A stretch of 64,000 nucleotides of DNA. It comes from a virus. Under the pieces are notes generated by a model. The model saw nothing but the letters and a program-made list of their open reading frames with translations. It did not search any database and was not told where the DNA came from. The DNA lies in IMG/VR virus record IMGVR_UViG_3300028908_000005, positions 1 to 64,000 of that record, one strand, 5' to 3'. Shown piece by piece: positions 127 through 51,775 of the stretch (position 1 is its first letter; every line of letters begins with the position of its first letter). The position numbers were made by a program, and so were the translations under genes.

Positions 127-471
127 CTAATCCTCGTACAGAAGCTCAACATAGAATGTGTTCTTTTTTGTTAGCAACGACATTGCAAACAGTAAATTCT
201 GCAAGAAATATACAAAATCGTATTTCTTTCCTCCGTAGTGGCAAACACCATGCGATCCTTTTGGTAACATTGCGATTCGCACACTGTCTACCGTCGGTTT
301 GTCATAAAAACGAAACCACACATTTTCTACATCTGCCGGAAACGTGAATACGTCGCGCACGATGTCTTCTGGTACGTAACAAAATTCTTCTTTTTGGCAA
401 TGAATGACATATTCACGACGTACATCAGAAGTATCCAAGGTTGCAATAATTTCAGCTATCGCCTTACTCAT
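127..471 (-). CDS. Hypothetical protein, 114 aa
   Basis: I do not recognise the family. The frame is open further upstream, but the ATG at 471 (MSKAIAEIIATL) is preceded by GGGATATATCT, the only good ribosome site, and the upstream extension is Arg/Ala-rich and overlaps the next gene. The protein looks soluble, with many aromatic residues in the second half and an acidic end (LLYED). It overlaps the 3' end of the zinc-motif membrane protein by 8 bases, so the two are probably cotranslated. Confidence 0.6.
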   Translation of the reverse strand: MSKAIAEIIATLDTSDVRREYVIHCQKEEFCYVPEDIVRDVFTFPADVENVWFRFYDKPTVDSVRIAMLPKGSHGVCHYGGKKYDFVYFLQNLLFAMSLLTKKNTFYVELLYED

Positions 472-655
472 AGATATATCCCTTGCCGTGACACGTCCCG
501 CACGTATCCCAGAATCCGCCCCACTGCCCGGAGCGGAACTGGCCCGTGCCTTTGCACGTCGGACAGACACGACGCTTCGTGCCTCGCGGTCTCCCACCAA
601 GCCAGATGCCGAGAATTAGTGCGGCAAGAAATATGAAGCCAAGTAAGTTATTCAT
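464..655 (-). CDS. Small membrane-anchored zinc-motif protein
   Basis: About 63 aa. Residues 4-22 form one hydrophobic helix (NLLGFIFLAALILGIWLG). A basic stretch follows, then two CxxCxGxG-type motifs (CPTCKGTGQ and CGTCHGKGY) like one half of a DnaJ cysteine-rich zinc finger. No J domain is present, so this is not a DnaJ. The basic residues after the helix predict a cytoplasmic zinc knuckle. Start choice is uncertain: the frame also opens at 673, and I chose the ATG at 655 because it overlaps the preceding stop by only 8 bases. Partner and role unknown. Confidence 0.6.
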   Translation of the reverse strand: MNNLLGFIFLAALILGIWLGGRPRGTKRRVCPTCKGTGQFRSGQWGGFWDTCGTCHGKGYIYE

Positions 656-872
656 CTGAATCGCAAAGTCCATCAGATACGCGAAGACACAAACTTAAAC
701 TGATTACGCCACTAACCACACCGAGTATCAACATCGGTGTGGTTATGTAAACTCCGTCACCCGCGAGCAACCACGCCGGTGCAGCAGTTTTCAGATACGC
801 TGTTATCGGAAACAGCGCCAGCATGAACAAAAACAGCAACAGCGAAAAGAAACCGTAAGCGAACCGCTCCAT
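648..872 (-). CDS. Small two-helix membrane protein, paralogue of the 1037-1252 gene
   Basis: 74 aa with two hydrophobic segments (about residues 8-26 and 44-64). The first carries LFLF..A..PITAYLK followed by APAW, a pattern shared with the protein at 1037-1252 (LFLF..ATIPLTAFLK, APAW, then Y, P and LGV in register). The start is fixed by a strong GGAGGAGG site six to eight bases before the ATG. Likely an inner-membrane protein; no function can be assigned. Confidence 0.7.
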   Translation of the reverse strand: MERFAYGFFSLLLFLFMLALFPITAYLKTAAPAWLLAGDGVYITTPMLILGVVSGVISLSLCLRVSDGLCDSDE

Positions 873-1036: not shown

Positions 1037-1252
1037 TCACGCGTCGTCACACGCTGCTTCTACGAACAGAAGCCAACAAAGTCCACCTGCCGCGACACCA
1101 AGCATCCGCAACGGTGACTCGATATAGTAGTAACCACCGTCAGCGCGCGCCCACGCGGGCGCTGTATGCTTCAGAAAAGCTGTAAGCGGTATCGTTGCAA
1201 CCGCGAACAAAAACAATACAACTGACAAGAAAATGTAAATAGCCTTTCTCAT
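1037..1252 (-). CDS. Small two-helix membrane protein, paralogue of the 648-872 gene
   Basis: 71 aa; AGGAG precedes the ATG by six bases. Two hydrophobic segments, with the LFLFAVATIP.TAFLK and APAW pattern in the first, match the neighbour at 648-872 in order and spacing. The C-terminus is acidic (VEAACDDA). The pair looks like a small gene duplication within the membrane-protein cluster. Function unknown. Confidence 0.7.
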   Translation of the reverse strand: MRKAIYIFLSVVLFLFAVATIPLTAFLKHTAPAWARADGGYYYIESPLRMLGVAAGGLCWLLFVEAACDDA

Positions 1253-1519: not shown

Positions 1520-2167
1520 TTATACAGTCGCTTCCTCAAATGCTTCGGCGAACTCTTTGCTCCGATGACACATAGCTAGAACTGACTCGTATGGCTCTTC
1601 GATACCGGTATCGACATGACCGATCACCGGAGCATCAGCACAACCGCATTGGTAAATAGTGCCGTTCGGTACGACGAAACACTCGTCGCAAACACAACGT
1701 AATCGCATCGACTCGGGCGGTTCGTCCGCGCGATCGAGACCAGATGTCTCCAAGTATCGACCCACCAAAAATGGATCCACTATCGTTCTGACGTTGTTAC
1801 CAAACGCTTCGATCACATCACAAGAAATAGGCTCGTGCCATTCGTCTAAGCTAAGAACACCGGTAATCGCACCGGCTTTTGCCAATCTCGCAATCATCAA
1901 GGCTCGCATTCGCCGTTTGCCGTTCGTCGCAACAAACGGTGATAGCTCGCTATCTGACATCGCAATCGCTTCAAGTAAAAACCGCTCGAACTGCGGATGC
2001 ACCGTCGGCTCGCCGCCGCCCAAACAGATGTACTCACCGTAGTTGGCCGCAAGCCGTAACGCCGCGGCAAACACCCTATGCGGCATGTCTTCGCCAGCAC
2101 CCGGCGCGCACGAAAAACAGCAGTGACCGCAGCGCATGTTACACCGCGTAGTTATCTGCAAATACAC
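1520..2167 (-). CDS. Radical SAM enzyme, compact (215 aa)
   Basis: The cluster-binding CxxxCxxC is at residues 9-16 (TRCNMRCGHC), right at the N-terminus. GGGEPT follows at about residues 50-55, the SAM-binding GGE motif. The C-terminal third holds further cysteines (CVCDEC, then YQCGC), resembling a shortened SPASM/twitch auxiliary-cluster region. Such enzymes use a [4Fe-4S] cluster and SAM to start radical chemistry, often on peptides; the substrate is not evident. The start is GTG, sharing its G with the TAG stop of the upstream paralogue-array gene, with AAGGA nine bases upstream. At 215 aa it is shorter than most peptide-modifying members. Confidence 0.8.
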   Translation of the reverse strand: MYLQITTRCNMRCGHCCFSCAPGAGEDMPHRVFAAALRLAANYGEYICLGGGEPTVHPQFERFLLEAIAMSDSELSPFVATNGKRRMRALMIARLAKAGAITGVLSLDEWHEPISCDVIEAFGNNVRTIVDPFLVGRYLETSGLDRADEPPESMRLRCVCDECFVVPNGTIYQCGCADAPVIGHVDTGIEEPYESVLAMCHRSKEFAEAFEEATV

Positions 2168-2700
2168 TACGACGATTCCTTTGCAGCTATTTCGTAGATA
2201 CGATCTTTATATTCTTGCCATGTTGACGATGATGCTGCCGCCTGCAATGACAACAACACCCACAATGCCCAAGTCTCTCGCGGCACCCAGTACGGTGCGT
2301 AAAGAGCGCCTTTACGCGCGCTGCGATACGCGGTCTCCCATTTACACAGCGTATAGCAATATTGCAGCGTCGCAGTAGGCGTTTCTTGCGTGGGCCATGT
2401 GGGAAATAATAGAAATGTGCCTGAGTCAGACTGCCGCGAAAACTCTTCTGTCAACCCGGCGAGGTCAAATCGCTCTAGAAGCGATACGCCATCGAGAGAC
2501 TCGATATGACTGTAAGACAAGATCTCGCGGGGCGTGAAAATTGTCAATAATGTTTGAATGTCCAAATACCGAGAGCGCAACAGCGCAGCAGTTGCAAGCG
2601 TCAGCACACCAGCAGCCAACCATTCCGGCCCTGGCGGATCAAGCGTATAAACACGTAACTGCCGCGTCGTTAAATCACGCAATGTTAACTGCTCAGCCAT
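2167..2700 (-). CDS. Paralogue array member A1
   Basis: 177 aa. It begins MAEQLTLRDLTTRQLRV, then the family motif EWLAAGVLT near residue 28, a central LSYSHIES segment, and ends with Y.PYW, a helical LWVLLSLQAA segment and TWQEYKDRIYEIA. Subgroup A members A1-A4 are easily alignable by eye throughout. The ATG at 2700 is seven bases after GGAG, and the GTG two codons earlier is too close to it. It overlaps the stop of A2 by 8 bases. No enzyme motif is visible; function unknown. Confidence 0.8.
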   Translation of the reverse strand: MAEQLTLRDLTTRQLRVYTLDPPGPEWLAAGVLTLATAALLRSRYLDIQTLLTIFTPREILSYSHIESLDGVSLLERFDLAGLTEEFSRQSDSGTFLLFPTWPTQETPTATLQYCYTLCKWETAYRSARKGALYAPYWVPRETWALWVLLSLQAAASSSTWQEYKDRIYEIAAKESS

Positions 2701-3238
2701 CGCCACTCTCCAAGCCGTCAGATATCTCGCAAATCCGAGCTTTGTATTCTTGCCATGTTGACGACAATGTTACCGCCTGCAACGACAATAACATCCACAA
2801 CGCCCAAGTCGATGGCCGCGTCCAGAATGGTGCGTAAAGGTAGCCCTCATACGTGTTGTGATACGCTGTCTGCCATTTACACAGCGTATAACGTCTTCGC
2901 ACCTCCAGTGTGGCAAAGTTCTTACGCGTCGGCCATGTGTAAAACAGCAAAAACGTACCCAATTCAGATCGCCGCGAGAACTCTTTTGTCAGCCCGGCAA
3001 AGTCGAACATCTCCACAAGACCTACGCCGTCGGGAGACTCGATACGGCTGTAAGACAAGATCTCGCAGGGCGTGAAAACTGTCAACAATGTTTGAACATC
3101 CAGATAGAGCAGGCGCAAACGCGCAGCAGTCCTACGCGTAAGTACGCCGGCGGCCAGCCATTCTGGCGCTGCCGGGTTCCCTGCCTGAATACGCAACTGC
3201 TGCGGTGTCAAATCTTGCAATGTTAACCGCTCAGCCAT
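2693..3238 (-). CDS. Paralogue array member A2
   Basis: 181 aa, the closest relatives being A1, A3 and A4. It shows EWLAAGVLT, then SYSRIESPDGV, FAGLTKEFSRRSELGTF, and the C-terminal TWQEYKARICEI. Compared with A1 it has a three-residue longer charged segment before YTLCKW. The ATG at 3238 follows GGAG by eight bases, and the stop lies inside the start region of A1, so coupled translation is likely. Confidence 0.8.
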   Translation of the reverse strand: MAERLTLQDLTPQQLRIQAGNPAAPEWLAAGVLTRRTAARLRLLYLDVQTLLTVFTPCEILSYSRIESPDGVGLVEMFDFAGLTKEFSRRSELGTFLLFYTWPTRKNFATLEVRRRYTLCKWQTAYHNTYEGYLYAPFWTRPSTWALWMLLSLQAVTLSSTWQEYKARICEISDGLESGDG

Positions 3239-3770
3239 CACCGCGCTCCAAGCCGTCAGCTATCTCGCAAATCCGAGCTTTGTATTCTTGCCATGCCGCT
3301 GCCGGCACTGCAGCCTGCAACGACAATAACAGCCACAAAACCCAATCCTCCTGCTGCGACCAGTACGGTACGTAAATATACCCTTCGCGAGTGTTGCAAT
3401 ACGCAGTCTCCCATTTGCATAGCGTATAACGTCTTTGCGTCATAGCAAACGGTTCTTGCGTCGGCCATGTGTGGAACACTAGAAACGTACCTAGCTCAGA
3501 CCGCCGCGAGAACTCTTTTGTCAACCCGGCAAAGTCGAACCTCTCCACAAGATCTACGCCATTGGCAGTCTCGATATGGCTGTAAGACAATACCTCGCGC
3601 GCCGCGAAAACTGCCAATATCGTTTGAGCATCCAGATAGAGCCATCGCAACCGTACAGCAGTCGTACGTGTAAGTACGCCGACAGTCAACCATTCCGGCC
3701 CCGGCGGATCAAGCATATAAACACGCAACTGCTGCAGCGTTAAGTCTCGCAATGTTAACTGCTTAGCCAT
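3231..3770 (-). CDS. Paralogue array member A3
   Basis: 179 aa. It keeps EWLTVGVLT, SYSHIETANGV, FAGLTKEFSRRSELGTF and AWQEYKARICEI. The FAGLTKEFSRRSELGTF block is identical to that of A2, whereas flanking parts differ more. That patchiness is what gene conversion or fast divergence between copies would leave. The ATG at 3770 has GGAG eight bases upstream. Confidence 0.8.
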   Translation of the reverse strand: MAKQLTLRDLTLQQLRVYMLDPPGPEWLTVGVLTRTTAVRLRWLYLDAQTILAVFAAREVLSYSHIETANGVDLVERFDFAGLTKEFSRRSELGTFLVFHTWPTQEPFAMTQRRYTLCKWETAYCNTREGYIYVPYWSQQEDWVLWLLLSLQAAVPAAAWQEYKARICEIADGLERGDG

Positions 3771-4308
3771 CACCGCTCTCCAAGCCGTCAGCTATTTCGT
3801 AGATACGATCTTTATATTCCCGCCATGTTGACGATGACATTACTACCTGCAACGACAATAACGACCACAAGGCCCAAGTCTCTGGCCGCGTCCAGGATGG
3901 TACGTAGACGTAGCCTTCATACATGCTGCGGTACGGCGTCTCCCACGGACACAACGTGTATCGCCTCCGCGTCGGCCTTTCCGCGAGGCTACCTTCTGTC
4001 GGCCATGCGTGGAACACCAGAAATGTACCCAAATCAGACCGCCGCGAGAACTCTTTTGTCAGCCCGGCGAGGTCAAATCGCTCTACAAGATCTACGCCGT
4101 CGGGAGACTCGATACGGCTGTAAGACAAGATCTCGCGGGGCGTGAAAACCGATAGTATCACGTAAGTATCCAAGTAGCGGCCGAGCAACCGTACAGCAGT
4201 CGTACGTGTAAGTACGCCGGCAGCAAGCCACGCAGGCTCTGCCGGGTTCGCCGCCCGAACACGTAACTGCTGCGGCGTTAAATCACGCAACGTTAACTGT
4301 TCAGTCAT
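3763..4308 (-). CDS. Paralogue array member A4
   Basis: 181 aa. It carries AWLAAGVLT, SYSRIESPDGV (identical to A2), FDLAGLTKEFSRRSDLGTF and TWREYKDRIYEIA. The segment before YTLCPW is longer than in A1-A3 and rich in Arg/Glu. The ATG at 4308 follows GGAG by seven bases, and an upstream GTG is too close to that site. Function unknown. Confidence 0.8.
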   Translation of the reverse strand: MTEQLTLRDLTPQQLRVRAANPAEPAWLAAGVLTRTTAVRLLGRYLDTYVILSVFTPREILSYSRIESPDGVDLVERFDLAGLTKEFSRRSDLGTFLVFHAWPTEGSLAERPTRRRYTLCPWETPYRSMYEGYVYVPSWTRPETWALWSLLSLQVVMSSSTWREYKDRIYEIADGLESGDG

Positions 4309-4840
4309 CGCCACTCTCCAAGACGCCAGCTATGTTGTATATCTGCGCTTTGTATTCGCGCCACGTCGGCAAAAACGTCGCTTGCCTGACAAGGAGAGCT
4401 ACCAACGGCGACACAAACGCGCGCAAACACATCGGCATCAGCAGCACACCAGTCTGTCGCAACCGCTGCGCAGCCGACCAGTCATACATCTCGTAACGAC
4501 AAAATCTAGCCGCCAACCTGCCTAAAGGCGAACACGCAAAGTCAACCGGCTGCGTATAGAAAGCTCCGCGGGCAGTCCGTACCGAAATCACCCGCATAAC
4601 CTCGTTCACGTCGATCGTCAGCGAAGCAAACTCGCCCTGGACAATGTCCGAATAATGCAGCGGCGGCAACGAAAGCGGACGGAACGCCGCGCGAATATCG
4701 TCAAGCCGCACGCCGTGTGATCGCAACGCCTGCGCGGCCCGCTTCGTCAACACGCCGGCGTTGAACCAATTCGCGTTCGGCATATCCATCGCATGCGCCA
4801 ACAATTGGTCCGGCGTCAAGTGGTCCGCGAGATCGACCAT
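4301..4840 (-). CDS. Paralogue array member A5, divergent
   Basis: 179 aa. Clearly related to A1-A4 at both ends (LTPDQLL, NWFNAGVLT near residue 26, and TWREYKAQIYNIAGVLESGDD), but the centre is almost completely different. That suggests conserved ends scaffold a variable middle. The start ATG at 4840 has GAGGG upstream and overlaps the stop of A6 by 25 bases. Confidence 0.75.
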   Translation of the reverse strand: MVDLADHLTPDQLLAHAMDMPNANWFNAGVLTKRAAQALRSHGVRLDDIRAAFRPLSLPPLHYSDIVQGEFASLTIDVNEVMRVISVRTARGAFYTQPVDFACSPLGRLAARFCRYEMYDWSAAQRLRQTGVLLMPMCLRAFVSPLVALLVRQATFLPTWREYKAQIYNIAGVLESGDD

Positions 4841-5370
4841 CCCAAGCCCTCTTTGTCAGCGAGCTCAATCGCCCTAAGACGTATCGCCGCCGGCGTCGGC
4901 CGCGCGTAAGCTTGTTGTGCCACGTACAACTCTAAGCGAGTACGCGGAAGTATAAATATAGGCACGTACACGTAAGACCGAGAGTAGCCTTCTTCCCCAG
5001 TAACCTCGTGCGCCAAATCCCACCCGACTCGCGTCATATGCCACACCACCTCCCACTCCAAAATCGCGAACATTATCGGTATGTTGCTTGTATCCAGAAA
5101 CGGATCGGCAAAATCATACATACGGAAGGCGCCGTACGGTCCGCGACGCGTAAATACGTCTAAGAATTGCGGCAGTCGCACATACGGCGTAGGAAGCCCG
5201 CCGGAGTTGTCCACTGCGATAAATGTTTTGACCTCCTCCGGCGACATCGTCTCCGCAATCATCGAAGGGCAGAGATCGTGCCGCGAGAGCTGCATCATGC
5301 AATTGGCATACTCGACGCCGACGTTTTGCCAGGCTTGCGTCGCCCGCGAACATACATCTAAAAGCGACAT
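4816..5370 (-). CDS. Paralogue array member A6, most divergent of subgroup A
   Basis: 184 aa. It retains a tryptophan-glycine element (AWQNVGVEY), a YVYVPIF segment where others have VP.W, and a C-terminal helical stretch (AIRLRAIELADKE). It lacks the LTLRDLT opening of A1-A4. The ATG at 5370 has AGGTG upstream. Assignment to the array rests on position, length and these weak end motifs, so it is less certain than A1-A5. Confidence 0.65.
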   Translation of the reverse strand: MSLLDVCSRATQAWQNVGVEYANCMMQLSRHDLCPSMIAETMSPEEVKTFIAVDNSGGLPTPYVRLPQFLDVFTRRGPYGAFRMYDFADPFLDTSNIPIMFAILEWEVVWHMTRVGWDLAHEVTGEEGYSRSYVYVPIFILPRTRLELYVAQQAYARPTPAAIRLRAIELADKEGLGWSISRTT

Positions 5371-5378
5371 ACAATCAC

Positions 5379-6023
5379 CTACGTGTGTATATCCAACACC
5401 ACAATCGTTTGCGGCTCCTCCGAACTCAGGTCAAACGCACGATGGTTATACGGCGAAAAATCGCTCGCGACAAACGGGAAGTATCTGGCGTCCAACACCT
5501 GAGCCGCGCGGTATAGCCGCGACGCTCGGTAGCTCAAATCATCCGTACGCGACTCGTCAACGTTACGCCGAATCCGCTCAGCAATCTCGTTCCGGTCATC
5601 ATACAGTTTGACGATATAATCATCGACGTACTTGCAAAACTGCTCACGCAGCTCGGCAACCGACATCTTCTCAAGCCTCTCAATCTCCGTCTTGAGCGGC
5701 TCTTTCACTTCACCGAAAATGAACGGCGGTATCGGCGACACGTCAGATGAATAAATCGTGGCCATCGCCGCTTGATGCCATGCTACATCGAACGGTGGCC
5801 GCTCCTCAAACTCGTCTGGTTTGATACGCCGCCACTTACGCTTAAGCGATAAGCCGCCTTCAGGATAGTCTGCTACCCACATTTCGTTGTTTCTGTTGAC
5901 GATACTCAACGGGAAAAACCAGTTGTTCTCGTCAAGCGTCAGCTCGTTGATAACGAAGTCGACAGTGTCTTCGAGCCCGTTATAGTCGTTATCGTCGACC
6001 GCGATAAAATAACTACCGTGCAT
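5379..6023 (-). CDS. Hypothetical protein interrupting the paralogue array
   Basis: 214 aa and not an obvious member of the surrounding family: it lacks the W..GV and VP.W motifs. It starts MHGSYFIAVDDNDYNG, is acidic in its first 60 residues, and has a central amphipathic, probably helical, region (IERLEKMSVAELREQF, then DRNEIAERIRRN). The ATG at 6023 follows GGAG by six bases; the frame is open further upstream but overlaps B1 more. Function unknown. Confidence 0.65.
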   Translation of the reverse strand: MHGSYFIAVDDNDYNGLEDTVDFVINELTLDENNWFFPLSIVNRNNEMWVADYPEGGLSLKRKWRRIKPDEFEERPPFDVAWHQAAMATIYSSDVSPIPPFIFGEVKEPLKTEIERLEKMSVAELREQFCKYVDDYIVKLYDDRNEIAERIRRNVDESRTDDLSYRASRLYRAAQVLDARYFPFVASDFSPYNHRAFDLSSEEPQTIVVLDIHT

Positions 6024-6561
6024 TGTTAGCTCCAATGATTTTAGCGACGTCTCGCGACAGCACCGCATTTGCGCCCGCCTGCGCTAACGTCGCTAACGCC
6101 TCAGACCGATCTATCCACTCGTTAAAATCGGCGCTCGTAGAACATATCTGCGCTTGCCGAAGTAGCCATAATTCGTCCATGCCACACCACCGTAACCACG
6201 CAGGTGCCACTGCCGACACTACGGTGGCGTTGCTGTAACACCGCCCGACATTTAAGTCGAGATCGCACAGCGTACACCGCCAAGTGACATTTCCGTGATA
6301 CCACCGCATAAGTCCGCGATCCGCTTCACCAAACACTTCCCGGTAATTGTAATACGCCACTGGGCCGCCTGCGACGTAGATACCTGCCGTGATACCGTAG
6401 TAAAAGTCGACATCGTCCGGATAATATTCGTGGAGCGCACACAAGTTTTCATCGGATAACCAAGGGATCGCTAATTGATGCTGTTCGCCAAAAATGCCCG
6501 CCAGCATACTTAGCGTGCGAGCAGGTATAACCTTGGCATAATCTGCCGATGTGGTACGCAT
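6013..6561 (-). CDS. Paralogue array member B1
   Basis: 182 aa. Subgroup B features: WLS.E.L..L.E.Y.DDV.F..GI.AG.Y.AGGP in the first half, VAPAWLRWCGMDEL..LRQAQIC in the second, then FNEWIDRSE and LSRDVAKII at the end. It resembles B2 along its full length. The ATG at 6561 follows GGAG by six bases. A pair of cysteines (WRCTLCDL) sits mid-protein. Confidence 0.75.
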   Translation of the reverse strand: MRTTSADYAKVIPARTLSMLAGIFGEQHQLAIPWLSDENLCALHEYYPDDVDFYYGITAGIYVAGGPVAYYNYREVFGEADRGLMRWYHGNVTWRCTLCDLDLNVGRCYSNATVVSAVAPAWLRWCGMDELWLLRQAQICSTSADFNEWIDRSEALATLAQAGANAVLSRDVAKIIGANNAR

Positions 6562-6594
6562 TTGTATCTCCAACGAGCAGCCGCCGCACGCAGC

Positions 6595-7119
6595 TTAATT
6601 GCTTATGATTTCGGCAACGTCCCGCGACAGCACCCCATTTTCAGGTACGCCTAGCAGCACTACTAAATCCTCAGACATCGCTACCCACTCATTAAAGTCA
6701 GTACTCACTGCGCATATCTGCGCTTGCCGAAGCAGCCGTAACTCGTCCATGTCACACCATCGCAACCACGCCGGGACCGCCACAGACACCATCATGTATC
6801 CGCGGTACATCGCCGTGCCACGCAATCGCAAATCTTCTAAGCTTCGCTGCCACGACAAGCACGTAAGCGATCGTCGAGAAATCGATAGCTGCTCACTGCC
6901 AAAGACGCACCAATAATCATAAAACGCAGCCGGACCGCCGGCAGCGTAAACGCCGGCCAAGATGCCTTGGCAAAATGACACATCGTCCGTGTAACGTTCG
7001 CGGAGCGTTAGCAAGTCTTCGCGAGACAACCACGAAAGCACCTGCTGTCGCCGCAACGCTGCTTCTGCCAACATGTTCCGCACGCGTTGCGGGACAATTT
7101 CTGTGTAAGATGCAATCAC
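6595..7119 (-). CDS. Paralogue array member B2
   Basis: 174 aa, starting at a GTG inside GTGA that overlaps the stop of B3; GGAG lies eight bases upstream. An earlier TTG in frame lacks a ribosome site. It shares WLSREDLLTLRERY, GVYAAGGPAA, VPAWLRWCDMDELRLLRQAQIC, FNEWV and LSRDVAEII with B1. Percent identity to B1 is visibly highest in the C-terminal half. Confidence 0.75.
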   Translation of the reverse strand: MIASYTEIVPQRVRNMLAEAALRRQQVLSWLSREDLLTLRERYTDDVSFCQGILAGVYAAGGPAAFYDYWCVFGSEQLSISRRSLTCLSWQRSLEDLRLRGTAMYRGYMMVSVAVPAWLRWCDMDELRLLRQAQICAVSTDFNEWVAMSEDLVVLLGVPENGVLSRDVAEIISN

Positions 7120-7619
7120 TTGAGCTTCTCCGGCCAAACCTTTCTAAGCTCTTGCATAACGCGTATTTCGTCATGCTGTGCCGACATAGCAGCAACGCGG
7201 TCGCATGCGTCCAACCAGGCGATATGCTTGCGACAACCTGTTATCGCCTGCATATAACACAACGCTTGGACTGGCGATATATCCGAACCTGAAAGCCAAC
7301 CTGGTAAGACAAACTCAATGTGCAATCGTGTTTCTCCGTCCCACCCCTGCGATGAATACGCATACGTGAGATGCCTAACCTGCCGCAACCACCTCCGCGT
7401 GGAGTCCCAATACCGCCAATTTGTAGAGTCAAACTGCCAGTCGACCTCTAAACAAAGCAAATCGGCGCCGGCAAGATAAGCCGCGCCTATCACCAACGAC
7501 ACTTGATCGCGTACTCGGTATTGCCTAATACGACTCAATACATCTTCCGGCACTCGAGTGTAGTCGACGCCTAAAGACCGCAACGTCAGATCTGCAGCCG
7601 TCCCTAGTCTTAGTTGCAT
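7116..7619 (-). CDS. Paralogue array member B3
   Basis: 167 aa. The C-terminal half carries the array signature (FVLPGWLSGSDISPVQALCYMQAI..., then AWLDACD). The N-terminal half keeps only YLAGADLLC in place of YAAGGP. The ATG at 7619 overlaps the stop of B4 by 10 bases and its own stop overlaps the GTG start of B2. Confidence 0.7.
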   Translation of the reverse strand: MQLRLGTAADLTLRSLGVDYTRVPEDVLSRIRQYRVRDQVSLVIGAAYLAGADLLCLEVDWQFDSTNWRYWDSTRRWLRQVRHLTYAYSSQGWDGETRLHIEFVLPGWLSGSDISPVQALCYMQAITGCRKHIAWLDACDRVAAMSAQHDEIRVMQELRKVWPEKLK

Positions 7620-8134
7620 AAATCACACACCGAATCGCGAAGAATGATAGGTTGCCAATTACCAGTACAAGCCGTTTCCTCGCACGCGTCCAGGAAGTCG
7701 TCGACACGCTTTGCAGCTGTGCAAACCTGTGCCAAACGCAGTACGTCAGCCGGCGATACGATCGCTGGCGTGACCCAAGCAGGCACTGGTGCTACGATCT
7801 CGTGTGTGCCGTCAAACCCGACGGTTACACTACACACCGACTTAATGTCGTTTAACGACTCCGGCGGTGATAAACGTCGCCACGGTCGGATGTTCGGCAA
7901 AGCCTCATAATCGGAAAACACGCAGCGTACCAAACGCAGCGATACTAGGCGGCTTTCAAGATAAAGCAAAGCAGCCAGCGCGCGGCCAAAATACCATGTG
8001 CCGAGCCCGGCATACCGCTGGTCCAACTCCGTAACGTGACTCGACTCCAAGTATCGCTCAAGCACAAGGTCCGGCACAGCAGCTTCTCGCAACACTATCG
8101 TCGCATACCCATGGTCGTATATTTCGTACAACAT
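7610..8134 (-). CDS. Paralogue array member B4
   Basis: 174 aa. Signature: VPAWVTPAIVSPADVLRLAQVC, then DDFLDACEE and a final ILRDSVCDLC. The first half has LYLESRLV, a weak match to the AGGP element. It starts with ATG at 8134, one base after the stop of B5, and has no strong ribosome site, so re-initiation from B5 is plausible. Confidence 0.7.
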   Translation of the reverse strand: MLYEIYDHGYATIVLREAAVPDLVLERYLESSHVTELDQRYAGLGTWYFGRALAALLYLESRLVSLRLVRCVFSDYEALPNIRPWRRLSPPESLNDIKSVCSVTVGFDGTHEIVAPVPAWVTPAIVSPADVLRLAQVCTAAKRVDDFLDACEETACTGNWQPIILRDSVCDLCN

Positions 8135-8135
8135 T

Positions 8136-8672
8136 TTAGTAGTACCACTCGGCGATATTTCGCATAGTCAACACATGATACTGGTCTAACGTCGAACGCG
8201 TCTGAATAATGGCTTCAAGCCCGTCTACCCACTCCGGCACATTCTGTGCGGCAAAACACACTTGGGCCGCTCGCAGCGCCTCCAACCAAGACCACCCGGC
8301 CTCGCATAACCAAATCGGCACCGGGAGCGAGCAAAAGTTAAACGAGTTCACGCACATACAGCGCTGTAACTGTTGTATCTCATCGTCGCGTTCGAGCTTG
8401 GAGTACTGCGTATGCGCCGCATGCACGATGCGCTGGTCAGACATATCTGCCGACATCGACGTGTACACCAGCGGACCTTCAAAACAATACAGCGCAGCAC
8501 AAACATTCCTGAACGCTGCCACAACGCGATCCGAACTGCGATACAACACATAAGCCAACGCGACGCGCGGAATTGTGTCTCGGATAACGTCCTCGCCGAT
8601 GCTGACCGCGCTAAAACGCAGCAACACGCGCGGCGGTATCTCCGGATCAGTGCTCTGTCGCATCATCACCAT
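8136..8672 (-). CDS. Paralogue array member B5
   Basis: 178 aa. It contains LPVPIWLCEAGWSWLEALRAAQVC, then VPEWVDGLE and LTMRNIAEWYY, all in the subgroup B order. The central part has a CFEGPLVY element like CxGGP in B1/B2. Three possible ATGs lie at 8672, 8666 and 8663; the first has GGAG ten bases upstream. It overlaps B6 by 26 bases. Confidence 0.7.
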   Translation of the reverse strand: MVMMRQSTDPEIPPRVLLRFSAVSIGEDVIRDTIPRVALAYVLYRSSDRVVAAFRNVCAALYCFEGPLVYTSMSADMSDQRIVHAAHTQYSKLERDDEIQQLQRCMCVNSFNFCSLPVPIWLCEAGWSWLEALRAAQVCFAAQNVPEWVDGLEAIIQTRSTLDQYHVLTMRNIAEWYY

Positions 8673-9111
8673 TTTGCAAAAACTCCACTAGCCGACCGAC
8701 GAACTCGGTGTTAGAAGCCGATTGCCGCGATAACGAATACCACAGCAAACCAGCCAATATGATGTCCGGAGGCGGAAGCCATATCGGTACCGGAATATAT
8801 ACAACGCTGCCAAGACGAAAAGTTGACGGCGCCGCATCGGCGTCGCCAAACTCGTACTCGCCAATCGGCACCAGATAAGAGATATCCGGCAAAATCGCTA
8901 ACCACCGCCATATAACCGGGCCGCCGCGAGCAAAAATCGCCTCGGCTACCACAGATAACAGCTGATCAGTATCACCGTAATAATCGATCCAGACAAGCAC
9001 TTCGTCGGGTGTCAAATACCGTCCTTGCATGTCCCAATCGTCATCGGCAATCTGCTTACACCAAGCTGCATAATGCGGTGCGACGACAGCGATCTCATGC
9101 AGGTTAGCCAT
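8647..9111 (-). CDS. Paralogue array member B6, shortest
   Basis: 154 aa. It keeps AIFARGGPVIWRWL (the AGGP element), YIPVPIWLPPPDI.LAGLLW and a C-terminal FVGRLVEFL. The ATG at 9111 or a GTG at 9117 are both possible starts; GGAG is better spaced for the GTG. The stop lies 26 bases inside B5. Confidence 0.65.
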   Translation of the reverse strand: MANLHEIAVVAPHYAAWCKQIADDDWDMQGRYLTPDEVLVWIDYYGDTDQLLSVVAEAIFARGGPVIWRWLAILPDISYLVPIGEYEFGDADAAPSTFRLGSVVYIPVPIWLPPPDIILAGLLWYSLSRQSASNTEFVGRLVEFLQNGDDATEH

Positions 9112-9760
9112 CGTCACCGTAATCACTCCACAGTGTTTCCAAGCAGTCCAGCAGCCACGCTTCTGGCGCCGCCGCCGTCTGACATATCTGGTAAAGCCGC
9201 AAACGCTGCAACTCCGCCGGCTGCCGCAGTGTCGGGTAACCTGCTCGCGCGTATTCGCGATCGCTCAGCATCGTTGAAAACGCCGCCGCCAACGACGATG
9301 TAAATCCGGCGTAAAGCGGTCGCCGGTTGATTCCGTCCTCGATGCACCATAGCCGCGAGAACCGCATCGCTATGTTAAGCTGCGAAAGCCTGACAACCGC
9401 CCGCCGCCAATCGAACAGCAACCTGATCGTCCCTTGCACCGCGCGCAATGTGCCGTCAACGTCTGGTACTGCGTAATTGCACAATATCGTTTCGCCATCC
9501 ATGTCGAAACTGTCGAATTGCGTATCCTCAATAACAATACCGGCGTCGCATTCGTACACGACGTTGTACCATGAAAGCAGCGTAGACGTCGACAGCTTGC
9601 TGCTGAGCCTAGTAAAATCTACCAACTCCAACAAACGATACGCCGCTGCCGTAAGTAGGCCGGCGTTAATCGCGCTGTGCCATCCCGGAACTTGCGGATC
9701 TAACGGCACTGCCGGAATATTCCGCTCGTCCAACCAATCTCTGATCTCGGCTGATAACAA
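9104..9760 (-). CDS. Paralogue array member B7, bridging subgroups
   Basis: About 218 aa. The frame is open up to 9907, but that extension runs through a hairpin terminator and a separate small gene, so I chose the TTG at 9760, which has GGAGAG eight bases upstream. It contains GWHSAINAGLLTAAAYRLLEL (the W..AGLLT motif of subgroup A/C) and, near the end, LQRLRLYQICQTAAAPEAWLLDCLE (the LAQIC...EW motif of subgroup B), linking the subgroups into one family. Confidence 0.65.
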   Translation of the reverse strand: MLSAEIRDWLDERNIPAVPLDPQVPGWHSAINAGLLTAAAYRLLELVDFTRLSSKLSTSTLLSWYNVVYECDAGIVIEDTQFDSFDMDGETILCNYAVPDVDGTLRAVQGTIRLLFDWRRAVVRLSQLNIAMRFSRLWCIEDGINRRPLYAGFTSSLAAAFSTMLSDREYARAGYPTLRQPAELQRLRLYQICQTAAAPEAWLLDCLETLWSDYGDDG

Positions 9761-9801
9761 CGGATATTCTCTCCGATAGCTAAAACGCGGTTTTGAAAAG
9801 C

Positions 9802-9835
9802 GCCGGCCAACTGTGTCTCCACACAGCCGGCCGGC
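9802..9835 (-). terminator. Hairpin terminator, possibly bidirectional
   Basis: GCCGGCC at 9802-9808 pairs with GGCCGGC at 9829-9835, with an inner CTGTGT/ACACAG stem and a CTCC loop. It lies just after the stop of the 49-aa gene. In minus-strand reading it is followed by GCTTTTC; in plus-strand reading by a T-rich run. It isolates B7 from the genes upstream. Confidence 0.65.
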
Positions 9836-9842
9836 TAGTTTT

Positions 9843-9992
9843 TTATTTCGCCCTCGCCGAGATCGCCTCGGCGAAGGCGCGTGCCGCCGCAGCCGCAGCT
9901 TCGGCATCCCTGTCTTGGTCGCGGCTGCGGGCTTCGTTCATCTTGGTGCCGAGATAACCCAGCACCAAGATGAAGATAACAAATTCGACCAT
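9843..9992 (-). CDS. 49-residue membrane peptide with Ala-rich tail
   Basis: ATG at 9992 with a consensus AGGAGG five bases upstream, ending at TAA 9843. Residues 1-15 (MVEFVIFILVLGYLG) form a membrane helix, followed by a charged linker (KMNEARSRDQDRD) and an alanine-rich amphipathic helix (AEAAAAAARAFAEAI). Its own terminator follows. It sits inside the paralogue array between subgroups B and C and is unrelated to it. Function unknown. Confidence 0.65.
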   Translation of the reverse strand: MVEFVIFILVLGYLGTKMNEARSRDQDRDAEAAAAAARAFAEAISARAK

Positions 9993-10057
9993 ATCGGCCT
10001 CCTTTTCTAACCGCTAAGCGGCACTTCTTAATGCCCGAAAATCGCCGCCTTCTTAAG

Positions 10058-10651
10058 CTAGCTATAGTTCACGACTACATCTGTCAACGGCAAACAGTGC
10101 GACCGCGTAACCGGAAGCTGCGGGCCGGCTGGAGCGTAGTCGGCGTAAATATCTATAAGCTTATCTATCCACTCGCGATACGTTCCGGACGATACATCCG
10201 CGCGCTTAGCGAGCAAAGCAAGCAGCCGCGAGCCGAGCGTAGACCAATAAGGCACCAGATATACGCCAGAACCGTAACGCTCGCGACGCTCTACCTGCCT
10301 AGACCAATTGTCCTCGGTAATTACCACGGAGCCGTAACGCATCGGCGTAGCGTAACCATAATCTTCGATAGCCACCATGCACAAAGAACACACAACGCGA
10401 CCCGAAAACCACCAAAAATCGCGATAAAACAAGCTCATGTCGAATACGGCAGTCGCGCTTCCGGTAATGTAATGTCGCAGCGTTGGAAGCTCGTAGTACG
10501 TTAAAAGTCCGGGCGTTATGCCTAACGGTACCAGGTAGCTAATCAATTCCCGTGAAACCACTCCGGCTTTTACCCACTCGTCAGACAAACCCCGGCACGG
10601 TACTTTGTAACCGCGGAACTCCAATTCGGCACGAATGTCGGGCTTCGCCAT
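10058..10651 (-). CDS. Paralogue array member C1
   Basis: 197 aa. It starts MAKPDIRAELEFRGYKV with GAGGTGG eight bases upstream of the ATG; a GTG four codons earlier has no site. Motifs: EWVKAGVVSRELISYL, HYITGSATAVFDMSLFYRDFWW, YLVPYWSTLGSRLLALLA, then YREWIDKL. A short CCGCTAAGCGG hairpin (10011-10021) follows the stop. Subgroup C members share the HY.i.G..v..D central element. Confidence 0.7.
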   Translation of the reverse strand: MAKPDIRAELEFRGYKVPCRGLSDEWVKAGVVSRELISYLVPLGITPGLLTYYELPTLRHYITGSATAVFDMSLFYRDFWWFSGRVVCSLCMVAIEDYGYATPMRYGSVVITEDNWSRQVERRERYGSGVYLVPYWSTLGSRLLALLAKRADVSSGTYREWIDKLIDIYADYAPAGPQLPVTRSHCLPLTDVVVNYS

Positions 10652-10653
10652 CG

Positions 10654-11271
10654 TCAATTCCACCTCGGCGGTGGCGGTCCTTGCGGCAGACCGACGCTGA
10701 CGTCAGCTAGCACATAATGCCGTCTGGACGTACACGGGATATCGTCATTCTCGTCGCATCGATCGCACATGCAGTTAATCCACTCAACGAACGTGTCAGA
10801 AACATATGCCGCTTGCGCCACTGCCAAGGCTCGCAAGTCATTTGCGTTAAAATAATACCAACTCGGCACCATCAATATTTCCGGCTCCGGAGGCCCCACC
10901 ACACGATTGCGGACCAACTCGTAATTCACAGCCGTAACTTTAACGCTGTCAAGCGTCACGTAGCAGTCGGCACGCGTAAACGCGAGTATGTTGGTAACTA
11001 CCTCGCTGGTCGCACGCCAGTACGCATAGAAGAATCTCGCCATATTGATGACGACGCCGTGACCGCTGATCCGATAGTGCGAAGCTAACGGCAAATGCGC
11101 CGCTATCAAGTTCGCCGGCGTAATCTGCAACCGCTCTAACGCAGATACCAGCCGCACGCTGATGATGCCGACCGCCGACCACTCGCGAGGAACGCATGAC
11201 GTGATCAAGCACTCGTGCGCCCGCATCAGCTCCCAAATCTCCATCAACCGTTCTTTTTCGCTTAGCGCCAT
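10654..11271 (-). CDS. Paralogue array member C2
   Basis: 205 aa from the ATG at 11271 (MALSEKERLMEIWEL). The frame is open to 11490, but that part overlaps C3 and lacks a ribosome site. Motifs: EWSAVGIISVRLVSAL, HYRISGHGVVINMARFFYAYW, MVPSWYYFNANDLRALAVAQAA, FVEWINCM, plus a terminal CMCDRCDEND pair of cysteines. The 5' end of this gene is duplicated as a dead remnant near 11.95 kb. Confidence 0.75.
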   Translation of the reverse strand: MALSEKERLMEIWELMRAHECLITSCVPREWSAVGIISVRLVSALERLQITPANLIAAHLPLASHYRISGHGVVINMARFFYAYWRATSEVVTNILAFTRADCYVTLDSVKVTAVNYELVRNRVVGPPEPEILMVPSWYYFNANDLRALAVAQAAYVSDTFVEWINCMCDRCDENDDIPCTSRRHYVLADVSVGLPQGPPPPRWN

Positions 11272-11858
11272 CGTCTGAACTCGCTGTGATTTTCGAATCG
11301 CGACAAATCCACCAACCGTAACAAAACCTGTCGCGAAATCGGAATATCGCGATCTTCGCGAGCAAGCGCTTCGCGCAGTAACTCGATCCACTCGACAAAG
11401 CTGGGCGCTGTCGACCACGCCTGTGCGAGTACCAGCGGCAGTAAAGTAGATAATCCGTTGTAGCGAACCCACAGCGGTAACACCACCCACTCCTCGGGAT
11501 CAGTGTATCGCTCAACTAAAGCACGAAAGTTGTACCGTGTCGCACAACTATTTCTCTGACGCGTATCTTCGATACAATACTCCGACACTATGACATTGCC
11601 GCTGCTCTGCCAGTAGTCATAAGCAAGCCGCGCCAAGTCGACGCACACGTCGCTGCCGACAACACAATAATGTTCGCGCGTCGGCAACTCTACCGCTGCC
11701 AAGTCGTCCGGAAAAAGCCCAGCGCCTCTCAACGTTGACGCCAACGCATAACTAACAACGCCAACGTCTAACCACTCGCGCTCCACGACGGCACTAACAC
11801 TGTAACCATCGCGACGCAAGCCGGTGATAATTTCGGCGACTCTATCTGAAGGAGCCAT
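11262..11858 (-). CDS. Paralogue array member C3
   Basis: 198 aa. Starts MAPSDRVAEIITGLRRDGY; motifs REWLDVGVVSYAL, HYCVVGSDVCVDLARLAYDYW, VLPLWVRYNGLSTLLPLVLAQAW and FVEWIELLREA. It is about 70 % identical by eye to C4, with an eight- or nine-residue deletion near residue 103. The duplicated unit that made C3 and C4 is bounded by the scar at 11859-11969. Confidence 0.75.
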   Translation of the reverse strand: MAPSDRVAEIITGLRRDGYSVSAVVEREWLDVGVVSYALASTLRGAGLFPDDLAAVELPTREHYCVVGSDVCVDLARLAYDYWQSSGNVIVSEYCIEDTRQRNSCATRYNFRALVERYTDPEEWVVLPLWVRYNGLSTLLPLVLAQAWSTAPSFVEWIELLREALAREDRDIPISRQVLLRLVDLSRFENHSEFRRWR

Positions 11859-11969
11859 TGCTTAGACTACGAGAACCAGCGTAAGAAAAGCCGTACCAGC
11901 TTGCGCCAGATGCGATACGCCCTCAGATCCCAAATCTCCATCAACCGTTCTTTTTTCGCTTAGCACCAT
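11859..11969 (-). pseudogene. Duplication scar: fused remnants of the C-terminal neighbour and of C2
   Basis: Bases 11845-11922 are identical to 12570-12647, which covers the 3' end of the gene at 12592-13110. Bases from 11923 on closely match the 5' end of C2 from about 11225, with a one-base T insertion and a few substitutions. Reading from the ATG at 11969 gives a frameshifted 35-residue fragment (MVLSEKRTVDGD...). This is the join expected from tandem duplication of a unit running from the start of C2 to the end of the 12592 gene. Confidence 0.8.
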
Positions 11970-12583
11970 CGTCTGAACTCGCTTTGATTTTCGAATCGCA
12001 ACAAATCACGCAGCGTCACTAGAGCCTGTCTCGCAATCGGGATATCGCGATCCTCCCTAGCAAATGCCTCGCGTATCAACTCGACCCACTCGACAAAGCT
12101 AGGCGCTGTCACCCACGCTTGCGCAATTACCAGCGTTAACAAATTAGCTAGGCCATCGTAACGCACCCACAAAGGTAGCACCGCCCGCGCCTCAGTGTCA
12201 GGGTGTCGCTCAACTAAAGCACGAAAGTTACACGGCCTCGCGCAACTAACCGTCTCTAGCATCCTACCGACGTGCAACCCGTGACTCGTCGCAGCGACAC
12301 TATACTTCGACACCATGACATTGCCGCTTTTCCGCCAGTAGTCATAAGCAAGCCGCGCCAAGTCGGCGCACATGTCGCCGCCGGCGACGAGATAATGGTC
12401 GAGCGTTGGTAGCTCCGCCTCCGCCAAATCGCCCGGCGAAATGCCCATGCCCCTCAATACTGTTGACAACGCATAGCTAACAACGCCGACGTCTAACCAT
12501 TCCCGCTCCACGACACCGCTAACACCGTAGCCGTCGCGACGCAAGCCGGTGATTATTTCGGCAATCCTGTCTGAAGGAGCCAT
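11960..12583 (-). CDS. Paralogue array member C4
   Basis: 207 aa. Same opening as C3 (MAPSDRIAEIITGLRRDGY) and same closing region (FENQSEFRRW). Substitutions relative to C3 concentrate in the central half, with an extra segment (GLHVGRMLETV) absent from C3. The stop overlaps the start of the dead C2-like remnant. The ATG has no strong ribosome site, as in C3. Confidence 0.75.
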   Translation of the reverse strand: MAPSDRIAEIITGLRRDGYGVSGVVEREWLDVGVVSYALSTVLRGMGISPGDLAEAELPTLDHYLVAGGDMCADLARLAYDYWRKSGNVMVSKYSVAATSHGLHVGRMLETVSCARPCNFRALVERHPDTEARAVLPLWVRYDGLANLLTLVIAQAWVTAPSFVEWVELIREAFAREDRDIPIARQALVTLRDLLRFENQSEFRRWC

Positions 12584-12591
12584 TGCTTAGA

Positions 12592-13110
12592 CTACGAGAA
12601 CCAGCGTAAGAAAAGCCGTACCAGCTTGCGCCAGATGCGATACGCCCAACGCAAATATCGCGGCCAGCGGTAGTATCTGGCCAGCGTCCGCGAAATAGCT
12701 ATCAGATCGGCAATCGCCGCCGGCGGGTCGTCCTCCGGCGCGTGCGTATCCTTCACGCCGGCCCAAATCCCAGCCAGACATATCTGGCCAAGCTTAGCGT
12801 AAATCGCCATCTGCACTGGCGGCGGCAGCTCCGTAAAACCTACTTCAGCCGCTGCAACCAACGGATTAGGCGTGTCGATAATTCTGTTGGCAAACTGCGC
12901 CAGTTTCTTGGCGCCTTCGATGAACTGCTCGTCAGTTATGTGATGATGCTTTACATAATCTTTGAACCAATCCTCTTGCCACTTAGGTTCGCACGCCCGC
13001 AAAGCCTCCCGTAGCATCGCCGGGCCGATATATGCCAAATCTCGCTCAGGGCTGTACATCGGGTCTCGTTGGCCCGCTCGCGGCTCTTTCCGGCGGTATT
13101 GAAGTCCCAT
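12592..13110 (-). CDS. Hypothetical protein, 172 aa, with basic amphipathic tail
   Basis: Not a member of the array family. ATG at 13110 follows GAGGA by five bases; the frame upstream has no site. The N-terminus is basic, a helical middle follows (FIEGAKKLAQFANRI, PVQMAIYAKLGQI), and the last 35 residues are Arg/Trp-rich (YYRWPRYLRWAYRIWRKLVRLF), likely an amphipathic membrane- or nucleic-acid-binding helix. A copy of the 3' end survives in the scar at 11859. Confidence 0.65.
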   Translation of the reverse strand: MGLQYRRKEPRAGQRDPMYSPERDLAYIGPAMLREALRACEPKWQEDWFKDYVKHHHITDEQFIEGAKKLAQFANRIIDTPNPLVAAAEVGFTELPPPVQMAIYAKLGQICLAGIWAGVKDTHAPEDDPPAAIADLIAISRTLARYYRWPRYLRWAYRIWRKLVRLFLRWFS

Positions 13111-13918
13111 TCGTTTCCTCGCTTTCGCAGTATCCGGATACTGTTTCTCTGTGTGTCGAAGCCGGACAATCCAAGTAGCCGACCTCGCATTCGCAACATG
13201 GGTGCGTATAGTCTCGCGGACACCGCCAAGGCTTTCCATCAAATTGGCGATACCGCATATGCACAATCTGCTTGTTCCATTTTAACAGGCCCGACGAACA
13301 TCGAACGAGATAGAAGCCCGGCTTCTCTTGCGACAACTTCGGGTCTAACAATAGCCAAACCCGCAAATTGACAAGCTCGCTGATATGCCGCATCGGGAAC
13401 GCTCCGCGACCAGTAGAATACCCCAGCCGCGTAGCCAACAACCGCACAAACTGCGACCGCCACCACTGCTGCAAAATCATCGGACACGCAGAACCGGCCA
13501 AAATGCGCAACCGATACAAACCACCCGCTTCACCCCAGCGAGATCGTTTGAAACTGTAGCTGATGATTTGCGCCGGTACCCATTCCTCTTCCGCCTGATG
13601 TACCCAAGGCCCAGCTTCCTTGCCTACCCGCAATTTCGAGATGTTCCCAGCCAAACGCCAAGCTACGGTCCGCGCCAGATCCCGCGTTATCTCCTGCCCC
13701 ACCAAATCCCGCAAGCTCATAAGTAAAACATCGCCGCGAACGCCGCCCAAGACCCGCCGCACTCTCTGCGACAACTGGGCAAACTGCTGGCCGGTCGGCG
13801 TGTACCCGATGTACTCGGCAAACACCTCGTCAAGCAGCTTGTCACGCAACCCGAACACGCGATTAAGCTGAATGTTCGGCAGCGCTACTGCGTGGCGTTC
13901 TTCGACAAGTTGAGCCAT
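13046..13918 (-). CDS. Hypothetical protein, 290 aa, Cys-rich C-terminus
   Basis: I do not recognise the family. The first 90 residues are helical; the centre has W-rich segments (WVPAQIISYSF, LQQWWRSQFVRLL). Residues about 231-255 hold CPRDYTHPCCECEVGYLDCP, a cysteine cluster that could bind zinc, followed by a disordered Ser/Pro tail. Its 3' end overlaps the next gene by 65 bases and contains the palindrome at 13128-13143 in frame. Confidence 0.65.
   Translation of the reverse strand: MAQLVEERHAVALPNIQLNRVFGLRDKLLDEVFAEYIGYTPTGQQFAQLSQRVRRVLGGVRGDVLLMSLRDLVGQEITRDLARTVAWRLAGNISKLRVGKEAGPWVHQAEEEWVPAQIISYSFKRSRWGEAGGLYRLRILAGSACPMILQQWWRSQFVRLLATRLGYSTGRGAFPMRHISELVNLRVWLLLDPKLSQEKPGFYLVRCSSGLLKWNKQIVHMRYRQFDGKPWRCPRDYTHPCCECEVGYLDCPASTHRETVSGYCESEETNGTSIPPERAASGPTRPDVQP
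13128..13143. promoter_or_regulatory. 16-bp palindrome CAGTATCCGGATACTG, copy 1
   Basis: Perfect palindrome 18 bases upstream of the ATG at 13110. The core AGTATCCGGATACT recurs at 34276-34289 and 51072-51085, and a 13-of-14 match is at 35871-35884; copies 1, 2 and 4 lie just upstream of a minus-strand start codon. This copy is inside the coding sequence of the upstream gene. Possible operator or RNA hairpin. Confidence 0.45.
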
Positions 13919-14238
13919 TCTTTAGCCGTCGTGTTTAGATCGTCGACACGTCGCCAGTCCGCTTCCACGCCCTGCGTCAGTACGTTCATGATAGACTGCA
14001 CGATGTGCCCCACGGACTGCCGCATGCTTGGGTCGAGCTTCGCAACATCGATCTCTATTTGAATGTCGCCAGGATAAACAAATCGCAGTACCGGCGCAGT
14101 CGAAGCGTCCCACTGCCCGGTCTCGAACGCTGTCAGCGTCCCTTTCAACAAGCGATAACGCTTGCCGAGTTCGCTAATACTCTTAGCAACCTCGGCAAGC
14201 TCTTCGCCAACGCTCAGAAGATCTTTCGATTCGTCCAT
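13885..14238 (-). CDS. Hypothetical protein, 117 aa, coiled-coil N-terminus
   Basis: ATG at 14238 overlaps the TGA of the upstream gene (TGATG). The N-terminus (LLSVGEELAEVAKSISELGKRYRLL) has heptad spacing typical of a coiled coil; the rest is mixed. A longer open frame upstream lacks a ribosome site. Function unknown; cotranslation with the DUF1016-like gene is likely. Confidence 0.6.
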   Translation of the reverse strand: MDESKDLLSVGEELAEVAKSISELGKRYRLLKGTLTAFETGQWDASTAPVLRFVYPGDIQIEIDVAKLDPSMRQSVGHIVQSIMNVLTQGVEADWRRVDDLNTTAKEWLNLSKNATQ

Positions 14239-15089
14239 CAAACAGCCGCCGGTCTTCGTAGAGGTACACACTGCGCTGGAACGTCGTCAGGCGATCGCTG
14301 ATCGCGAATAATTCGCTGCCGCTGCCGCTCCAACATATCAGCCTTCATATGCGCAGCTACAGCCAGCTCGCGCAACTTGGTTACCAGTTCGTCGAGATTG
14401 TCCAGCAAACCAGTCGGCACTTCCGACGCCCGCATTACCGACAACTCGCGCGATAAGTCGTATCGGTCGCCAAACCATTCGTCGTCGAACTTGACCAGCA
14501 ACTGACCGACCTGTGCATCCATATGTGCTACGCACGCCGCCGGAGATTGCGGTTGGAACGGGCCGACTTCGTTTACCGGAGCACTCGCCGGCGTCAGTTC
14601 AATCGGGTCGGCTTCTGTCTCCAAGCCGTCATCGCCTTGGTCTTCCTCGGCAAGCTCCGCCTCCGCAACGCCGTTACGTCGCTCAAGCTCGTGCAGCAGC
14701 GTCGTACGGTTCCACTTATTGGCCAATGCTTCCTCGGCAAACGCGCGGCGCTCGTCAACGTCAGCAATTCTCGCCATGTACAACAAGTGCCACCAACCGA
14801 ACACGTAACGCCCGTTGCGCTGCGATACGAACCAATTGAACACTTCCTCGGGGTACGCCCCATATACCTGCCGGGCGTGCCGCAACGTCTCACGCGACAA
14901 CCCGAGCTCGTCAGCAAGCTTACCGACAATGTCCTGCCCGTAATAGTTGTCGCACGATTTCGCCTCGCAGATAGCATCCTCGACGCACGCGCCGATCCGG
15001 TAATTGCCAGTCACAGTCGTGCGCGTCATGTCGCGTAATATCTCCGCAATACGCTCAATAGCTCGCGCTTCAATTTCCTGCAGCTCCAT
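14238..15089 (-). CDS. DUF1016/YhcG-N-like helical protein, 283 aa
   Basis: Residues 50-140 show the pattern L..E.GLSRETLRHAR..Y, then FGWWHLLYMARIADVDERRAFAEEALANKW, followed by LLHELER. This matches the family pattern LSW.HY..LL.V.D...R.FY..EA....WS...L from memory. That domain is usually a helical DNA- or partner-binding module in front of a nuclease; no PD-(D/E)XK nuclease follows here. The middle is acidic and disordered (about residues 140-185) and the end is coiled and basic. Role unknown. Confidence 0.55.
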   Translation of the reverse strand: MELQEIEARAIERIAEILRDMTRTTVTGNYRIGACVEDAICEAKSCDNYYGQDIVGKLADELGLSRETLRHARQVYGAYPEEVFNWFVSQRNGRYVFGWWHLLYMARIADVDERRAFAEEALANKWNRTTLLHELERRNGVAEAELAEEDQGDDGLETEADPIELTPASAPVNEVGPFQPQSPAACVAHMDAQVGQLLVKFDDEWFGDRYDLSRELSVMRASEVPTGLLDNLDELVTKLRELAVAAHMKADMLERQRQRIIRDQRSPDDVPAQCVPLRRPAAV

Positions 15090-41416: not shown

Positions 41417-41545
41417 TTACCTGAGAAGCAGCTCGTATAGTACATAAACCACAACAACCACAACAAACAACCCATCCGGTACGGCGTCAGCTACGGCGCC
41501 GCACAGCTTTCCGAACCCTTCAAGACGCTCACGGTCGTTAGCCAT
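41417..41545 (-). CDS. 42-residue membrane peptide, head-to-head with terminase
   Basis: ATG at 41545 has a consensus GGAGG six bases upstream. MANDRERLEGFGKLCGAV is followed by a single strong helix (LFVVVVVVYVLYELLL). Its start codon overlaps the terminase ATG on the other strand (catg at 41543-41546), and the terminase start lacks any such site. Confidence 0.6.
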   Translation of the reverse strand: MANDRERLEGFGKLCGAVADAVPDGLFVVVVVVYVLYELLLR

Positions 41546-51066: not shown

Positions 51067-51070
51067 GATG

Positions 51071-51762: not shown

Positions 51763-51775
51763 TAGCAACTTCCTC

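Follow-up and report, generated by a model that had tools for sequence, protein, structure and literature searches.

We find that 17 minus-strand genes, which fill roughly one-tenth of the sequence known for a large tailed phage and are missing from its relatives, almost certainly constitute, as a group, a single diverged protein family, although the assignment is less secure for B7 and B3. Comparison of the sequences indicates that the array arose through tandem duplication and segment swapping. The evidence supports a lineage-specific accessory locus, and counter-defence or host interaction is the most likely reading of its role. Having 17 natural variants in one genome makes their targets, the value of copy number and the value of segment exchange directly testable.

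The window, that is, the whole stretch of DNA analysed, covers bases 1-64000 of a virus record 91,976 bases long. An earlier sequence-only reading had described a tandem array of 17 related minus-strand genes here, and all of these ORFs (A1-A6, B1-B7, C1-C4) are present and intact where it had placed them. The tandem arrangement stands for the 17 members but not as an uninterrupted run, in that an unrelated gene, X, intervenes. Transcription runs from C4 to A1; the members and their immediate neighbours are given here in that order, and scores are those of the leave-one-out HMM comparison described below.

13046-13918, minus strand: conserved anchor gene, present in array-less related phages; its end overlaps the longest D ORF.
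12592-13266, minus strand: D, unrelated, upstream of the array; the C4-C3 gap contains a copy of its 3' end; start codon uncertain.
11960-12583, minus strand: C4, 207 aa, first transcribed array member; score 124.5; 68% identity to C3.
11859-11959, minus strand: C4-C3 duplication scar, from DNA alignments, with a relay ORF inside read from the sequence.
11262-11858, minus strand: C3, array member by leave-one-out HMM; AlphaFold2 model with pLDDT 81.5 and pTM 0.79.
10654-11271, minus strand: C2, array member by leave-one-out HMM; start overlapping the C3 stop (ATGGCGCTAA).
10058-10651, minus strand: C1, array member; score 37.9.
9104-9760, minus strand: B7, weak member; score 11.0, reached by 1 of 1000 shuffles; start probably TTG, with SD GGAG ahead.
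8647-9111, minus strand: B6, weak member; score 10.7; start overlapping the B7 stop (ATGGCTAA).
8136-8672, minus strand: B5, array member; score 28.7.
7610-8134, minus strand: B4, array member; score 26.4.
7116-7619, minus strand: B3, weak member; score 12.5, against 12.1 for the best shuffle.
6595-7119, minus strand: B2, array member; score 52.8; start probably GTG, overlapping the B3 stop (GTGA).
6013-6561, minus strand: B1, array member; score 72.3.
5379-6023, minus strand: X, non-member within the array; score -1.5, equalled or exceeded by 576 of 1000 shuffles; start placed by its SD GGAG and ATG.
4816-5370, minus strand: A6, weak member; score 13.2; profile-profile comparison with A (hhalign) E 4e-4.
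4301-4840, minus strand: A5, array member by leave-one-out HMM and DNA alignment; body diverged.
3763-4308, minus strand: A4, array member, mosaic with A1-A3; leave-one-out HMM and site-topology test.
3231-3770, minus strand: A3, array member, mosaic; same two tests.
2693-3238, minus strand: A2, array member, mosaic; same two tests.
2167-2700, minus strand: A1, last array member, mosaic; same two tests.
1520-2167, minus strand: short radical SAM protein (PF04055, E 2.6e-13); GTG start, 1-nt overlap with the A1 stop.

The C-terminal tail of D (YYRWPRYLRWAYRIWRKLVRLFLRWFS), partly copied into the C4-C3 gap, is strongly cationic, aromatic and amphipathic-looking. Downstream of the array and the radical SAM gene are two small membrane-like proteins (648-872 and 1037-1252, minus strand) that by eye are tandem paralogs, a second and smaller duplication. 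In a 69-aa protein at 464-673 (minus strand), an N-terminal segment is hydrophobic and paired CxxCxGxG-type motifs resemble those of the DnaJ zinc finger.

The proposal of one diverged family held up, each of the 17 members being recognised by a profile of the remaining ones. To avoid circularity the profile was rebuilt 17 times, each time omitting the tested member, and the comparators were 95 other predicted phage genes and 1000 shuffles of the tested member. All 17 members scored above all 95 other genes, and 16 scored above all of their own shuffles, the exception being B7. For the weak members (A6, B3, B6 and B7) a fold shared with the others is suggested by weak sequence evidence. We also tried X and D as family members and rejected them, since their control scores were noise. 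Pairwise BLASTP similarity is clear within A1-A5, within C1-C4 and within B1/B2/B5, with identities of 65-71% among A1-A4, 68% for C3/C4, 49% for B1/B2 and much less for other pairs. Common origin was further upheld by profile-profile comparison, which linked A with C (E 3.7e-10, prob 96.7) and B with C (E 2e-4, prob 46, confined to the C-terminal VP.W-AQ.C-EW part). B7 had been described as a bridge between the subgroups, a role that its BLAST matches support weakly (E 0.009 to A1 on the N-terminal side, 0.028 to B4 on the C-terminal side); its N-terminal part is A-like and its C-terminal part B-like. No 18th member was found in the other 80 kb of the phage.

Most junctions in the array have a 4-26 nt overlap or a spacing of a few bases, the larger gaps being 33 nt before B1, 101 nt before C3 and 297 nt before B7; this overlapping gene order suggests translational coupling. 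For several genes the true start is probably a little downstream of the one first listed. For A1-A4 the better starts are the ATGs at 2700, 3238, 3770 and 4308, which follow an SD GGAG embedded in the preceding gene and lie 3-6 bases inside the longest ORF. Members of A, B and C alike have junctions with the stop/start overlap GATGG(C/T)(GC)T(A/G)A, which occurs at six places in the array (the C4 scar included) and at three elsewhere on the same strand; this pattern is consistent with a single coupled unit having been duplicated head to tail.

In the C4-C3 gap, the first codons of a C2-like gene, with one extra A, are joined to a 64-nt piece that matches the 3' end of D plus spacer exactly. 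A relay ORF of 35 codons starts on the C4 stop and stops 3 nt short of the C3 ATG. This scar has the structure of the joint that a tandemly duplicated D-tail/C/C2-start unit would be expected to leave. The stretch of identity reaches 14 nt into the coding part, and ~43% of synonymous sites differ between C3 and C4; either the joint formed after the two gene bodies had diverged, through recombination with a diverged copy, or the stretch has been constrained or homogenised. Among A1-A4, sites that divide the four members two against two cluster by topology (34 adjacent agreements versus 18.4 expected, p=0.0001), showing that segments have been exchanged. A5 combines an old body with an A-type 3' end, its last 60 nt being ~88% DNA-identical to the A2 end, and similarity among members drops with distance along the array (p=0.014).

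The 91,976-base record, in which no end repeats were found, may be a fragment. It encodes a DNA polymerase, a DnaB-like helicase and a terminase. Among 50,697 phage records the helicase had 0 matches and the terminase had matches at 20-30% only; the DNA polymerase leads to a metagenomic phage group at 33-54% identity, with contigs up to 229 kb. We conclude that the array is carried by a large tailed phage, a bacterial virus previously unsampled. The polymerase scan of GTDB gave a single weak match (25% identity), on a Bacteroidales MAG contig, too little to name a host. Elsewhere on the record, the terminase large subunit ORF (41544-44891, plus strand, 1115 aa) is recognisable as a terminase only at residues 709-1103 and has a long unexplained N-terminal extension; the relative L002 matches upstream too (query residues 11-933). 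A DUF3150 protein (49746-53746, minus strand) lies near an ATPase (phrog_8638) that related phages retain. The PHROG match of 32219-33619 (minus strand) is a bifunctional heptose kinase/adenylyltransferase, and PfkB and cytidylyltransferase domains appear in a pooled Pfam scan, which does not assign them to individual proteins.

In the related phages (those with the 33-54% identical DNA polymerase) the anchor gene is kept and the array is absent. The anchor is 28-41% identical in seven related contigs and 41% identical in G003; several of the related contigs that carry it are of the same species. No array member was found by profile search of the related phages' whole contigs, nor, with all filters off, in the fetched sequence of G003, G007, L001 and L002 or in the anchor-downstream stretches of six contigs. 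What follows the anchor in these phages is a variable gene set and then, in most, homologs of the genes at 70203, 64917, 63989 and 61900. Since array-less relatives have the anchor followed by variable genes, we place the array, itself located downstream of replication genes, in a slot whose content varies from phage to phage in this group. One related phage (L032, contig IMGVR_UViG_3300017992_000015) has at 6034-15337 five large genes in tandem that are paralogs of one another, with 29-57% identity over parts of their length, and that possibly encode tail-fibre or baseplate proteins; no similarity to the 17-gene array was seen.

More widely, no array homologs were found in IMG/VR with the A, B and C profiles and pairs (the mixed B alignment, too diverged, was left out), in GTDB genomes with the A profile, or in INPHARED by tblastn of A2 and C4. 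These scans depend on exact matches to short conserved stretches and on confirmation by tblastn, and distant relatives could escape them; more sensitive profile searches covered the selected related contigs. The expectation of matches in other phages at different copy number was thus disappointed: no relative was found, and the related phages are without the array. Pfam and PHROGs (8 of 17 members each), NCBIfam (3 of 17) and PADLOC (all 17) gave chance-level matches only. The lack of an enzyme motif noted in the sequence-only reading is borne out, as no enzyme or known domain was matched, and no virion family either. No reverse transcriptase, as would accompany the template repeat and adenine-specific variable repeat of a diversity-generating retroelement, was found among the proteins scanned, which were part of the ORFs.

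AlphaFold2 gave a confident model for C3 with the 17-row alignment, C3 alone among the 17 members having such a model. It has helices at the N-terminal end, strands that surround a central hairpin, and a C-terminal pair of helices bearing the L..LA.AQ and EW landmarks. The run for A2 with five A rows was not confident (pLDDT 41.8). The C3 model is compatible with homology of the added alignment rows and does not prove it, because the two runs differ in query as well as in alignment. Searched with Foldseek against PDB and BFVD, the C3 model returned nothing below E 2. The array proteins form a new family, and the fold confidently predicted for C3 is without a known match.

Pairwise dN/dS values (Nei-Gojobori) are 0.26-0.44, indicating purifying selection on average and hence no general positive selection. 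The earlier idea that these proteins are under pressure to vary fails in this respect, if taken as general diversifying selection; the source of variation is duplication and segment exchange. Within B1/B2 and within C3/C4, variability is highest in the central hairpin (C3 coordinates 88-123); in A1-A4 the block of lowest identity is the middle of this hairpin (101-110). The hairpin is also where most of the length variation lies (35-66 residues), with further variation at the ends, and in the A group segment 124-139 changes about as much as the hairpin. Because loops vary in most proteins, this variability is suggestive only as a sign of a contact surface.

We give an even chance to the host-directed reading, in which this lineage-specific recombining family acts on the host rather than in the virion, because these are small soluble proteins encoded near replication genes, lineage-specific, recombining, maintained, and with no virion or enzyme signature. 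The absence of matches is itself no demonstration of a host-directed role. In the mechanism that we propose, the array grew by head-to-tail duplication and its members exchanged segments; each member keeps a common scaffold and varies most, in sequence and length, at one central hairpin, the putative contact surface. Members, expressed early or in the middle phase, would inhibit or bind host factors, acting in counter-defence or host takeover, and extra copies would first increase dosage and later diverge toward different target variants. The full version of this proposal, in which 17 recombining coupled cassettes with a lysine-poor constant scaffold of new fold and a variable hairpin supply a simultaneous panel of host-factor binders, is doubtful.

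A different possibility is that the paralogs, as position-specialised subunits, build a single hetero-oligomeric assembly inside the cell (a shell, ring or scaffold), with coupling setting their stoichiometry. A single operon with 4-26 nt overlaps at many junctions would suit such an assembly, as would soluble, mostly acidic proteins with a conserved scaffold and variable surface parts. We nevertheless consider it improbable, given that the array is wholly absent from related phages with homologous replication and neighbour genes, that 17 subunits at 15-20% identity would be extreme, and that mosaicism and the copy-number scar suggest tolerance of copy change.

The composition of the array proteins (soluble, mostly acidic, ~155-220 aa) raises a special case of the host-directed role. 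Lysine is at 1.3%, versus 4.0% in the other phage genes of >=140 aa, a threefold depletion, and is <=2.5% in all 17 members, X and D being ordinary; K/(K+R) is ~0.13 versus 0.34 in the phage's other genes, and tryptophan is twice that of other genes. Lysine poverty could be a selected trait that allows escape from host lysine-directed tagging or degradation of a pupylation-like kind, for example in proteins acting on that system. Among phages whose mycobacterial hosts pupylate, lysine deserts are enriched, and they have been linked to pupylation escape (PMC10665810), an analogy that makes pupylation a lead. Yet the 17 low values are not independent, given shared ancestry, some other genes of the phage are also lysine-low, and the idea would apply only to a host with such a system; this explanation too is improbable.

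Returning to the host-directed reading, we weighed against it the chance that the array reflects dosage amplification, or the passive expansion of a repeat, most of whose copies have little function. The tandem duplication scar, the recombination among copies, and several members that barely resemble the rest would all be expected of such a repeat. Nonetheless none of the 17 ORFs is disrupted, dN/dS is well under 1 in all measured pairs, and ~10 kb would be costly in a packaging-limited genome, which makes a passive repeat quite improbable. It is highly improbable that the radical SAM protein at the operon end has the array proteins as its substrates or partners: its start overlaps the A1 stop and its core is similar to peptide maturases such as YydG, but the array proteins are of folded-domain size with no obvious precursor peptide or shared modifiable tail, one related phage has a radical SAM gene without the array, and the NCBIfam matches are all far below curated cut-offs. 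A RiPP precursor/maturase system was likewise rejected, the array proteins (~155-220 aa) lacking a shared core.

Viral paralog expansions have repeatedly been markers of host-directed genes. The MGFs of African swine fever virus and the 'gene accordions' of poxviruses are tandem paralogs in a variable part of the genome, many of them host-directed; these are unrelated viruses and proteins, and the likeness is an analogy only. For phage tandem paralog arrays we found no direct match in the literature. An AcrID1-type identity of the array proteins is not supported, as the PDB sequence search gave no match at E<=1 and Foldseek nothing below E 2, in solved-structure sets that presumably include AcrID1. 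SIRV2 has 12 AcrID1 homologs, five of which are without an early promoter, and there likewise many small diverged paralogs lie close together in one viral genome; they are concentrated in few relatives, and the founding protein is an anti-CRISPR (PMC11065993). SIRV2 is an archaeal rudivirus, whereas our array is one overlapping operon with SD-type starts in a phage. In T4, tandem amplification of tifA overcame toxIN, the copy number of a counter-defence gene being raised via recombination at short matches to give head-to-tail repeats (PMC9391042). Those copies arose within laboratory selection (PMC9391042), in contrast to the array copies, which are old, at 15-20% identity and under purifying selection. 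We take both AcrID1 and tifA as analogies for the array, which documents the growth of such a locus in a tailed phage.
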